Positions 26,200-38,253 of a stretch of 63,761 bases of DNA are shown here, one piece after another (position 1 is the stretch's first letter; the number at the start of each line of letters is the position of its first letter). This DNA is from Candidatus Hinthialibacteria bacterium OLB16 (lineage in GTDB: Bacteria; Hinthialibacterota; Hinthialibacteria; OLB16). The stretch covers positions 1 to 63,761 of the forward strand of contig LMZT01000111.1 in assembly GCA_001567115.1 (NCBI GenBank), given 5' to 3'. A model generated the notes under the pieces. The model made no database searches. It had not been told where the DNA came from and was given only the letters and a program-made list of their open reading frames with translations. A program made the translations under genes and the position numbers.

Positions 26200-26874
26200 A
26201 TGAGAACCAAGCCCATCAGATGCAGCCAGTCAGGCGGTTTCACACTGATCGAGCTCCTGATTGTTATTGCAATCATTCTGATTCTGATTTCGATTGCGCT
26301 CCCAAATTTCATGGAAGCGCAGGTGCGCGCACGGCTGACCAACACCCGGGGATGCCTGCAGGCCTACCGGGTAGCCAATGAAGCCTACCAGGCTGACTTC
26401 AGAACCTACATTCCCGATGTGGATGGCGGGGAAATTGAACCCACCACCAAACGCAGCTGGGCCTCCCTGTGGGCCAGGGGACGAAAAATCAACTGCGACA
26501 TGGTGGGCGAGTTATGCTCGTTTGCCATGCTGACAACACCGATCCAGTATATAAAGCAGCTCTGTTACGATCCCTTTCTGGCTCAGCAGAAGGACCCGCG
26601 CATCAGCAAGCCTTACTCACTGCCTGAATACACCTCCTATCTGTCCGGATCGAAGCAGCGCAAGATGTGGGCGGAACAGTATGGCCTGCGTTATTCCATT
26701 TTGAGCCGCGGCCCTGATCTGGATATCGATGTCGGCAGCTATGACCACCTGTGGTGGTATCTGGGAGCGCATATTCACCACAGCATGGGTTTCCCGGTCA
26801 TCTATTCAGCCACCAATGGGACTTATTCGAGCGGGGATATGGTGGTCTCCAATCGAGGACACGAAGGCCCTTGA
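26200..26874 (+). CDS. Stand-alone type II secretion-type pseudopilin (NFMEAQ type)
   Basis: A 224-residue prepilin-like protein. The leader is followed by GGFTLIELLIVIAIILILISIALPNF and MEAQVRARLTNTRG, a perfect class III signal with Glu at +5. The soluble domain begins with the AYRVANEAYQADFRTYIP pattern of GspG-like proteins and includes YSILSRGPDLDIDVGSYD, a common PulG-like ending. It carries AGGAGGT before the ATG. It lies alone, far from the pseudopilin operon, and resembles the protein at 48871-49467 in its N-terminal 35 residues but not in its soluble domain. Such orphan pseudopilins are numerous in Sumerlaeota and Planctomycetes-like genomes. Confidence 0.85.
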   Translation: MRTKPIRCSQSGGFTLIELLIVIAIILILISIALPNFMEAQVRARLTNTRGCLQAYRVANEAYQADFRTYIPDVDGGEIEPTTKRSWASLWARGRKINCDMVGELCSFAMLTTPIQYIKQLCYDPFLAQQKDPRISKPYSLPEYTSYLSGSKQRKMWAEQYGLRYSILSRGPDLDIDVGSYDHLWWYLGAHIHHSMGFPVIYSATNGTYSSGDMVVSNRGHEGP

Positions 26875-34141: not shown

Positions 34142-36022
34142 ATGGCTGATCGTATCAAGATTCTTGGAGGACGAGTTTTTTTACCACCTGAAGTTGCACA
34201 GATTCTGACCAGTTCCCCAAAAGTTGTTATTCCTGCCAGCCGCCACCAGCTTGCCGATCTTTCACTGGGTGGCGAAGAATCCGGCCAGTTTGAAGTGGGA
34301 TATGAGGTTCCGGGAAAAGGCCGGGTTGTTGAAGCAAAAGTGATTCGGGCACGCAATGGAGTGGCGGTCAATTATATGGAGCCATACATGCGGCGCCGCG
34401 ACCCCGACTGCATGGTGGTTGCCGATTCCGGTCCAACCGATAAATCACGCTTTTCTGAACGTTTCGAGGGTTCGTTCCAGGATATGCGCCAGGAGGTTTT
34501 CGACTGGCTGGGGAGACAGGAGGTCCTGGTTCTCCCTTTCATGGCGGGTAAAACCGAACTGGGGTGTGATGCGCTTTTGATAGCGCCATTGAATGCTGCT
34601 TTTTTCGCCACCGGACTGGCGGACCTCCAGGGGATGATTCCAGAAAATGAAATCCCTGAAGGATTCCATCCGCGAGCCATCATCTACCTGGCGCCTCCCT
34701 TCCGCCATACACACTGCCAGGGGCGGCAGATTGTAATCCATAACCGTATGGAAGGCCTCCATGAGCTCTTCTCGCTGAACCTTTATCCAGGTCCCAGTGC
34801 CAAGAAGGGCATTTATGGAGTGCTGCTGTCGATTGGCGAGTCCGAAGGCTGGCTGACCGCTCATGGTTCAACTGTCCAGGTGGTCACCCCTTATGACAAC
34901 ATCGTGACAATCATGCACGAAGGGGCCAGCGGCGGTGGAAAAAGCGAAATGCTTGAATATGTCCATCGTGAAGCGGATGGGCGGCTGCTGCTGGGAGTCA
35001 ATGTGGTTTCCGGGGAAAAAAGGTTCCTGACTCTCAATCAGAGCTGCCAGCTCAGACCGGTCACCGATGACATGGCGCTGTGCCAGCCGGAACTCCAGGG
35101 AGAAAGCCGGAAGCTGGTGGTCACCGATGCGGAAGATGCCTGGTTTTTGCGCATCAACCATATCACGCATTATGGCATCGATCCACAATACGAGAGCCTG
35201 ACTATTCATCCTCCCGAGCCACTCGTTTTCCTGAACCTGGATGCAGTTCCTGGAGCCACCTGCCTGATCTGGGAGCATCAGGAAGATGAACCCGGGGTGC
35301 CATGCCCGAATCCACGTGTGATTCTTCCACGCCGGATGGTGCCGGGGATTGTGAACTCGACAGTGGAGGTCGATGTGAGGAGTTTCGGAGTCCGGACACC
35401 TCCCTGCACACGGGAAAATCCCAGTTATGGAATTTTTGGCATCCTGCATTTCCTGCCGCCGGCACTGGCATGGTTGTGGAGGCTGGTATCGCCGCGAGGT
35501 TTTTCAAATCCGAGCATCACAGACTCCGAGGGGCTTGGCAGCGAAGGAGTGGGATCCTACTGGCCATTCGCCACCGGCCGGAAAGTCGACCAGGCTAACC
35601 TGCTGCTCCGGCAGATCCAGTCCACCCCCGGAACCCGGTACACCCTCTCTCCCAACCAGCATGTCGGATCCTGGAAGGTGGGATTCATCCCGCAATGGAT
35701 TGCCAGGGAGTACCTGGCGCGCCGTGGCGGCGCTAAATTCCGCCCCGACCAGATCGTCCCGGCGCGCTGCCCGCTGCTGGGCTATACCTTGAGGTCGGTT
35801 CTCTTCGAAGGCACACAAATTTCACACTGGTTCCTGGAAGTCGATACCCAGCCGGAGGTCGGTCCTGAGGGATACGATGGCGGAGCTCAGGAATTGAGCG
35901 TTTTCTTTGAAGAAAGCCTGTCCTGTTTCATGGAGGAGGCGGATCTCGACCCCAAGGGGCGTGAGATCATTCAATGCTGTTTTGATAAAGGTTCAGTCAC
36001 GGACTACGAAAAGTTACTCTGA
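34142..36022 (+). CDS. DUF4914 family protein with P-loop
   Basis: A 626-residue protein that I recognise as DUF4914. The central HEGASGGGKSEMLEYVHRE near residue 258 is a phosphate-binding loop resembling those of PEP carboxykinase and HPr kinase folds. Nearby WLTAHGSTVQVVTPYDN resembles the preceding strand-loop. Other conserved blocks are HITHYGIDPQYESLTIHPPEP and PCPNPRVILPRRMVP. A nucleotide-dependent kinase or carboxykinase-like role is plausible, but no reaction is established for the family. The gene stands alone and is followed by a 290-base region with a sigma54-type promoter for the next gene. Confidence 0.82.
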   Translation: MADRIKILGGRVFLPPEVAQILTSSPKVVIPASRHQLADLSLGGEESGQFEVGYEVPGKGRVVEAKVIRARNGVAVNYMEPYMRRRDPDCMVVADSGPTDKSRFSERFEGSFQDMRQEVFDWLGRQEVLVLPFMAGKTELGCDALLIAPLNAAFFATGLADLQGMIPENEIPEGFHPRAIIYLAPPFRHTHCQGRQIVIHNRMEGLHELFSLNLYPGPSAKKGIYGVLLSIGESEGWLTAHGSTVQVVTPYDNIVTIMHEGASGGGKSEMLEYVHREADGRLLLGVNVVSGEKRFLTLNQSCQLRPVTDDMALCQPELQGESRKLVVTDAEDAWFLRINHITHYGIDPQYESLTIHPPEPLVFLNLDAVPGATCLIWEHQEDEPGVPCPNPRVILPRRMVPGIVNSTVEVDVRSFGVRTPPCTRENPSYGIFGILHFLPPALAWLWRLVSPRGFSNPSITDSEGLGSEGVGSYWPFATGRKVDQANLLLRQIQSTPGTRYTLSPNQHVGSWKVGFIPQWIAREYLARRGGAKFRPDQIVPARCPLLGYTLRSVLFEGTQISHWFLEVDTQPEVGPEGYDGGAQELSVFFEESLSCFMEEADLDPKGREIIQCCFDKGSVTDYEKLL

Positions 36023-36245: not shown

Positions 36246-36313
36246 AACCGATATTCAGCTGGGTAGCATAAGAAACTGAGGGGGAGAACTATATTTCCAC
36301 GGAGGTGGTGTCG

Positions 36314-38188
36314 ATGAAAGCCAGGTGGATTGGCTCCCTGTCAGTCGCAGCAGCGTCTATCTTCGCACTTGCTGGCGCCGGGTATGCTCAGGAAGCTGAA
36401 CAGACAGTAAAAACACAGAGAGGGGCAAACGATATGGTATGCGCCCTCCTGAAAACCAGTGAGGAAATCATCTGGGCCACCCGGACCGAGGTGAGATCCC
36501 GCGAAATTCCCACTACTCGTTCGGAAACCCGCACACGGCTGGTCACTAAATATCGCCCAGAAACCCGTTATCGGGAAGAAACCCGTTACAAGACCGAAAC
36601 CCGCGAAAAAGAAGAGCCAAGAACCCGGCTGGTTTCAAAAACGCGCCCGGTCCAGCGTGAGCGGGAAGAGACTCGTTACAAAACCGAGACCCGTTACAAG
36701 GATGTCGAGAAATCGCGTACTGAAACCCGTGTGAAGATGGAACCCCGCTCACGGCAGGAAACCCGTTACCGTGAGGAAACCCGCACACGCCAGGTCCCCA
36801 AAGTCCGTGAAGAACCTCGTGTCCGCAAAGAGACCCGCTACCGCACCGAAGTCCGCGAGAAGCCGGTCACGGATTATGAAGAGGTCGTGAAGACACGGAT
36901 CGAAACCCGCATGGACACAGTCGAAAAGATGCGTCCAACCACACGGGTCAAAATGGTTCCCAGAACACGAACCGAAGAAAAGACAGTCTATGATGAGCGA
37001 ACCAAAGTTGTTCCGAGAGAACGGGAAATTACACGTTACCGGACTGAAGTGGACTACCGGACCGAAACCCGCCGGAGGTGGGATCCCACCGAAAGGGATG
37101 TGACTCTCTACCGTTGCTCCTACGAATGCCGGGATGGCTGCCCGGTCCGTGTGGCCAAGCCTTATAACACCAAGGTCCGTGACTGGAAGCGCGTGAAATA
37201 CGAGGTTCAGGTTCCCTTCGAGAAACAGGTTCCTTACACCGATACAGTCACCGAAGAAGATGTGGTTTCCTACAAGGTTCCGCGGGTTGAAACTTATGAG
37301 GTCCCTTATGAGGAGCCGGTCGAATACACCGATTATGTTCCATACACCGAGCAGGTTCCCTATGAGGTCGAAGTGCCAGTTGTCGAAAAGGTTCCCACCA
37401 CCCGGCTGGTAAAAGAAGAAATCCAGGTTCCTTATCAGGTCGAAGTGCCCTACACCGAAACAGTCAGCTATACCGATACAGAGACCTATACGGAAAGGGT
37501 TCCCTACACTGTGGATGTTCCCTACGAAGAAGCAGTGGAATATACCGTGCAGGTTCCCTACACCGAAAAAGTTCCCTACGAGGAGCAGGTTGCCTATACC
37601 GTGAAGGTTCCTTACACGGATGAGGAAAGTTATCAGGTTCAGGAAACCTACACAGTGAAAGTCCCTTATCAGGTTCAAGTTCCTTATACCATCCAGGTGC
37701 CCTACACCGAACAGGTGGCCTATCAGGCGCAGGAGCAATATGCCGTTCAGGTGCCTGACAAAAAGGTCGAGCAGTACACGGTTATGGTCAAATACCCCAA
37801 AGCCAAGCATGTCATCGAGACCAAGCACCCATACTTCTGCGGGTCTGCCCCGGTAGGCGGGAATCCATTCGGGCCAAGGCACCCGGCGGGAAGGAACAGG
37901 ACTGTTGATCTTGGAGAACCGACAGTGGTTTCAAACCGCATGGTGAATCTGACTCCCGAGGAGGTTCAGCAGGCCATCACAACTGCCAGTGGACCACTGG
38001 AGCAGGTGATCGGCACAGTCCACACAGCGGTTCAACAGGCACCGGCAGCGGCCCCTCCGCATACTGCCACAGTCTCAACCACACCGGCGCCGCAGCCACC
38101 CGCACAGGCTCCCGGTCCGGCGGAAGATCTGTCACCGGAAGAGGAGCCTTCGGTCGAAGGTGGTGCGCTCCCGGCCATCTGGCAATAA
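36314..38188 (+). CDS. Exported charge-segregated hexapeptide-repeat protein
   Basis: A 624-residue protein with a signal peptide (residues 1-25, ending AGAGYA). Residues 59-256 are 33 uninterrupted hexapeptides of the type E-T-R-Y-R/K-x (for example ETRYRE, EPRTRL, VPKVRE), hand-counted at about +62/-41 charges. Residues 257-287 form a spacer with three cysteines four residues apart (C268, C272, C276). Residues 288-491 are 34 hexapeptides of the type V-P-Y-T/E-x-x (VPYTEQ, VPYEVE, VEYTVQ), about +16/-39. The tail is Pro/Ala-rich. The repeat register is exact and the coding DNA repeats every 18 bases. GGAGGT precedes the ATG at 36314; a GTG at 36305 is in frame. Related Val-Pro-Tyr repeats are known in Planctomycetes; function is unknown. 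Confidence 0.9.
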   Translation: MKARWIGSLSVAAASIFALAGAGYAQEAEQTVKTQRGANDMVCALLKTSEEIIWATRTEVRSREIPTTRSETRTRLVTKYRPETRYREETRYKTETREKEEPRTRLVSKTRPVQREREETRYKTETRYKDVEKSRTETRVKMEPRSRQETRYREETRTRQVPKVREEPRVRKETRYRTEVREKPVTDYEEVVKTRIETRMDTVEKMRPTTRVKMVPRTRTEEKTVYDERTKVVPREREITRYRTEVDYRTETRRRWDPTERDVTLYRCSYECRDGCPVRVAKPYNTKVRDWKRVKYEVQVPFEKQVPYTDTVTEEDVVSYKVPRVETYEVPYEEPVEYTDYVPYTEQVPYEVEVPVVEKVPTTRLVKEEIQVPYQVEVPYTETVSYTDTETYTERVPYTVDVPYEEAVEYTVQVPYTEKVPYEEQVAYTVKVPYTDEESYQVQETYTVKVPYQVQVPYTIQVPYTEQVAYQAQEQYAVQVPDKKVEQYTVMVKYPKAKHVIETKHPYFCGSAPVGGNPFGPRHPAGRNRTVDLGEPTVVSNRMVNLTPEEVQQAITTASGPLEQVIGTVHTAVQQAPAAAPPHTATVSTTPAPQPPAQAPGPAEDLSPEEEPSVEGGALPAIWQ

Positions 38189-38219
38189 ACAGCCCGCTGC
38201 AAATTCAGTTGTTTCCAGG

Positions 38220-38253
38220 AAAGGGTGATCCTCAAGATCACCCTTTCTTCTTT
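38220..38253 (+). terminator. Rho-independent terminator of the hexapeptide-repeat gene
   Basis: The perfect 11-bp stem AAAGGGTGATC/GATCACCCTTT with the loop CTCAA is followed by CTTCTTT, 31 bases after the stop codon. It isolates the repeat gene from the downstream cysteine desulfurase. Confidence 0.85.

Follow-up and report, generated by a model that had tools for sequence, protein, structure and literature searches.

A charge-segregated two-arm protein of Candidatus Hinthialibacteria bacterium OLB16, a likely giant antiparallel beta-hairpin

Results

The window analyzed here is a stretch of 63,761 nucleotides of contig LMZT01000111.1 from Candidatus Hinthialibacteria bacterium OLB16. A complete gene on the + strand (36314..38188, from the ATG start to the end of the stop codon) encodes a protein of 624 amino acids, P0001, and is present as a single copy in its own genome. 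A Shine-Dalgarno sequence, GGAGGT, was read directly at 36301..36306 (+), 7 nt 5' of the ATG. An intrinsic terminator hairpin with a 14 bp stem lies 3' of the gene at 38217..38249 (+), the segment 38205-38262 folding with −23.6 kcal/mol (z −4.5). Given this strong hairpin, the gene is probably monocistronic and transcribed alone. The gene directly upstream encodes a full-length DUF4914 protein (34142-36022, +; PF16260, 1023 bits), and the other neighbor is a NifS/IscS-like desulfurase. At L006, the neighbors are RarA-like and polyphosphate-kinase-like genes (named by eye); as the flanking genes differ between the window and L006, synteny is absent and operon clues to function were discarded. 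Elsewhere in the window, a type IV pilin-like protein with the prokaryotic N-terminal methylation motif PF07963 is encoded at 26200-26874 (+).

P0001 begins with a signal-peptide-like sequence (MKARW...AGYA, residues 1-25; 36314..36388, +), a pattern recognized by eye that suggests export. A cysteine invariant in the homologue alignment, Cys43 (36440..36442, +), marks the base of the first arm. This basic arm (residues 59-256; 36488..37081, +) consists of 33 hexads with the consensus ETRYRx and carries K16 R46 D5 E36, for a net charge of +21. It is followed by a spacer (residues 257-287; 37082..37174, +; net +1) with cysteines at 268, 272 and 276 and with the dipeptide D274-G275 (37133..37138, +). 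The acidic arm (residues 288-491; 37175..37786, +) consists of 34 hexads with the consensus VPYTEx and carries K11 R5 D8 E31, for a net charge of −23; its first 6-11 residues (288-298) are transitional in sequence. A second invariant cysteine, Cys509 (37838..37840, +), precedes a C-terminal tail (residues 510-624; 37841..38185, +) in which a conserved LTPEE motif leads into Pro/Ala-rich low-complexity sequence that varies among homologues. With the start at ATG 36314, these results confirm the hexad numbers, common register, residue numbers and spacer cysteines of a preliminary description of this DNA, and computation yielded exactly the arm charges counted there by hand. The two cysteines flanking the arms and the roughly 130 residues beyond the second arm were absent from that description.

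The hexad register was checked unit by unit in both arms and never slips. Self-identity at lag 6 was 0.31 in the basic arm and 0.36 in the acidic arm, as compared with shuffled means of 0.14 and 0.12 and shuffled maxima of 0.22 and 0.21. The six-residue periodicity is thus far above chance, though the units are degenerate. Even lags were enriched and odd lags depleted, which is a mark of extended beta structure.

Among the 14 genomes of the phylum that were examined, the protein was found in all three of its own family and in none of the remaining 11. The named records are the metagenome-assembled genomes 'Candidatus Omnitrophota bacterium OFTM149' and 'bacterium Bin_79R'. No further full-length match was detected in 386 genomes across bacteria or in 294 genomes of a single phylum, that of G286, which was taken as Planctomycetota on the basis of its YTV proteins. 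Weak matches at L004, L010-L014, L017 and L019 were rejected, as they look like chance low-complexity similarity or broken frames.

The alignment of P0001 with its homologues L002 and L003, from three genera, has no gap from residue 41 to residue 510, and overall identities are 47-60%. There is no indel in these 470 residues, and both homologues have both arms, in the same polarity and of exactly the same lengths. Recurrence of basic and acidic arms similar in length had been put forward as support for a conserved assembly principle, and homologues with one arm or unequal arms as the rule as its refutation; no single-arm relative was found among the 14 genomes of the phylum. The net charges of the two arms are +21/−23, +19/−29 and +24/−41 in the three proteins, and pairwise comparison of the homologues shows no exchange of a positive for a negative residue in arm 1. 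Corresponding hexad units are 49-69% identical between homologues, and non-corresponding units are far less alike; the array was therefore already fixed when the genera diverged and has kept its order since. A frozen array of this kind would fit the requirement of a matched hairpin. Third codon positions of the three homologues diverge most (0.60-0.64 vs 0.24-0.40) while the protein is kept, which indicates selection on the protein of the + strand. An antisense ORF of 377 aa that overlies both arms (36749-37882, −) has a counterpart of 404 aa in L002 and is broken in L003. Given the constraint on the + strand protein, this ORF was rejected as a gene and attributed to the repeat composition.

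The two arms were compared for charge complementarity across all antiparallel registers. A first scan at the level of units, performed before the AlphaFold model was looked at, gave 549 as the best mirror register (r=−0.55). After smoothing, the charges of arm 1 and of mirrored arm 2 were best anticorrelated at i+j=550 (r=−0.56), with a hexad-shuffle P=0.001 across all antiparallel registers, and register 549-550 was recovered from either half of arm 1 and in every 24-residue-block jackknife. The count of opposite minus like contacts peaked at i+j=549-551 in each homologue alone, and none of 150 shuffles scored as high; the three homologues are related, and these tests are thus not fully independent of one another.

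Prolines showed an equally regular pattern, with 39 of 39 in arm 1 on even residues and 65 of 65 in arm 2 on odd residues, at spacings that take many different even values and not just multiples of six. By established beta-hairpin geometry, both proline classes would occupy the non-hydrogen-bonded, outward sites of a two-stranded ribbon if the register is odd, as 549 is, and set by a two-residue turn.

The midpoint of the arms falls on the dipeptide D274-G275. L002 has GG at this point and L003 has NG, and Gly275 is invariant. Consistent with a hairpin centered here, AlphaFold (from the three-row alignment) drew one strand over residues 53-273, including the basic arm, and a second over 276-497, including the acidic arm, joined by a two-residue turn (273+276=549). 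Confidence in this model was low, with a mean pLDDT of 51.7 (33-41 in the remaining four models) and a pTM of 0.18, and AlphaFold may have a bias towards hairpins in alternating sequences of this type; the model is therefore support for two long pairing strands, and not proof. At the open end of the hairpin, Cys43 and Cys509 lie at nearly mirrored positions (43+509=552). Neither arm contains a cysteine in any of the three homologues. The redox-sensitive three-cysteine hinge proposed earlier is doubtful, since C268 is found in two of the three proteins and C276 in one, although C272 is invariant; C43 and C509, invariant in all three, are better candidates for a clasp.

The suggestion that the arms zip together has thus gained a specific antiparallel register from sequence and prediction, but the register does not distinguish pairing within a chain from pairing between chains. 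In a strand-swapped or head-to-tail assembly, arm 1 would pair antiparallel with arm 2 of another chain to produce an intermolecular fiber with identical complementary charges and register, and a beta-ribbon of such length could open at its turn. However, a two-residue DG/GG/NG turn with an invariant glycine at the exact center is what an intrachain hairpin needs and a swapped dimer does not. The turn favors the intrachain hairpin, and we regard the swapped assembly as unlikely.

The low-complexity composition and the low pLDDT would also suit a largely disordered polyampholyte in which slippage had multiplied the hexads, the arms had no fixed pairing, and the charge split had arisen by drift or as a trait for phase separation. 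Slippage repeats would not be expected to persist for 470 residues without indels, to be conserved unit by unit under strong protein-level constraint, or to display perfect proline parity and a reproducible register, and such disorder appears improbable.

Hexad repeats are also carried by left-handed beta-helices, with which P0001 shares the six-residue period. Together with the strong net charge on each arm, this could suggest that the arms fold separately, for example as a beta-solenoid or two sheets, and bind other partners, the basic arm anionic envelope polymers and the acidic arm cations or cationic surfaces. However, neither a Pfam hexapeptide match nor the [LIV]-G-x(4) hexad signature was found in P0001, and the arms are almost free of glycine. 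Separate folding would leave the equal arm lengths unexplained, and the complementary local charge patterns are best at one mirror register; we consider it very unlikely. Searches of the PDB by sequence and by fold gave no significant match (none at E<=0.001), a point against the proposed fold, and NCBIfam matches to 'EntB wall-binding' and lipase models were rejected as compositional, scoring far below their cut-offs. On balance, sequence and prediction argue for pairing of the two arms in a hairpin, a part of the explanation in which we place high confidence.

A weak match in the genome search led to comparison with the planctomycete YTV proteins (PF07639). In the literature, these proteins are described as major constituents of the SDS-resistant planctomycete wall (PMC5287468), a location also shown in PMC8567305, and as Cys-rich and limited to Planctomycetales (PMC8567305); one of them is listed as essential in P. 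limnophila (PMC10632474). At the curated PF07639 cut-off of 21 bits, neither P0001 nor L002 gave any match and L003 reached 16.7 bits, while the positive controls L015, L016 and L018 matched at 30-118 bits. Profile-profile comparison by hhalign yielded probabilities of 1% and 16% for common ancestry, neither significant.

Despite this distance, P0001 and the YTV proteins share a signal-peptide-like start, two long length-matched arms of alternating repeats rich in T/V/Y/P, a central Cys-bearing hinge, prolines of one parity per arm, a charge-complementary register and a predicted giant hairpin. The 624-aa protein thus has the architecture (length-matched arms, hinge, one-parity prolines) that was defined as a criterion in the present analysis. 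The differences lie in cysteine content (4-5 in all in the P0001 family vs mostly 29-72 in YTV proteins), in repeat units (strict hexads vs mostly 14-16 residues) and in charge, which is segregated between the arms of P0001, whereas in nearly all sampled YTV proteins the C-arm is basic and the N-arm is neutral or weakly positive. With no profile match, no detectable homology and few cysteines, P0001 was not filed under YTV; it resembles YTV proteins in how it works but is no member by profile, homology search or Cys content. The preliminary description knew of no precedent for the split-charge layout. This claim must be softened, as YTV proteins share the two arms and one of them, L016, has an acidic arm followed by a basic one (−7 and +16), the reverse polarity; its register scan was ambiguous, with top registers at 608 and 611.

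The arms of aligned YTV proteins were 167/165 or 199/197 residues long in one group and 145/131 or 177/163 in the other (143/131 in one protein), so that the two arms kept a constant length difference within a group. An increase of 32 residues in one arm was always accompanied by 32 in the other, with the insertions at different places. In 22 YTV proteins, the distance from one proline to the next was even in all 377 cases. The AlphaFold model of the YTV protein L045 (pLDDT 50) has strands at 56-224 and 265-433, of 169 residues each, and between these a tip made of short strands. Charge complementarity peaked at the predicted register or two residues away in seven of nine YTV proteins. A cysteine zipper inside the YTV hairpins was rejected, as direct Cys-Cys pairs were near zero at the predicted register; the arm cysteines therefore probably link molecules, not arms.

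Several other proteins have a related layout. An 854-aa YTV protein, L051 (G536:C1:4367600-4371800; L028/L051), contains a super-repeat of exactly 76 residues in both arms, as if a hairpin had grown by paired additions; the C-terminus of L051 looks frameshifted. The planctomycete YTV-like proteins L055 and L056 are Cys-poor (3 and 10 Cys) and have the same two-arm layout, intermediate between the Cys-rich walls and the Cys-poor 624-aa protein. Pilin-like proteins L042, L043 and L061, with a hydrophobic N-terminus such as SAVLVVVLYIAVAIAALSF, also have out-and-back arms with prolines largely of one parity per arm, as in P0001, and are Cys-poor. Unlike those of P0001, their arms are inserted between other protein parts and are not free-standing, and this YTV-like arm pair would be a similar hairpin in another protein. 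The genome of L061 lies outside the sampled YTV families.

Discussion

The 624-aa protein represents a new family with a two-arm, YTV-like design, whose special feature is charge segregation. It is likely an exported structural ribbon, zipped by charge into one giant antiparallel beta-hairpin. The outgoing strand would comprise residues of about 53-273 and, after a turn at D274-G275, the returning strand those of about 276-497, giving a two-stranded ribbon with roughly 220 residues in each strand. At 3.3 A per residue, this ribbon would be about 70 nm long. The strand register would be set by opposite charges at facing positions, and prolines confined to outward-facing edge positions would let the two strands pair while blocking further sheet growth. 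Cys43 and Cys509 would meet at the ribbon base, where they may form a disulfide.

By analogy with the planctomycete YTV wall proteins, such a ribbon, without Cys-rich arms, may serve the cell envelope or surface as a structural fiber or strut. This envelope role is somewhat more plausible than not.

A general envelope principle is also reasonably probable, in which two-stranded beta-ribbons stand free, have 170-220 residues in each strand, take their register from charge and are kept from aggregating by prolines at their edges. Such ribbons would make up the Cys-rich YTV walls of Planctomycetes and, with fully segregated charges, would also occur in an unrelated or very distantly related family from another phylum. 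To our knowledge, this shared giant beta-hairpin principle is undescribed.

Segregated charges and Cys-free arms make the pairing rule of the 624-aa protein readable from sequence alone, and the rule carries over to YTV proteins in matched arm lengths, compensated indels and proline parity. The available portions of the literature on planctomycete protein walls (PMC5287468, PMC8567305 and PMC10632474) contain no description of the YTV fold. If true, the general ribbon principle would explain the exact paired length changes of the YTV arms, would give one class of bacterial wall proteins a fold that can be tested directly, and would offer a natural template for long designed beta-ribbons.
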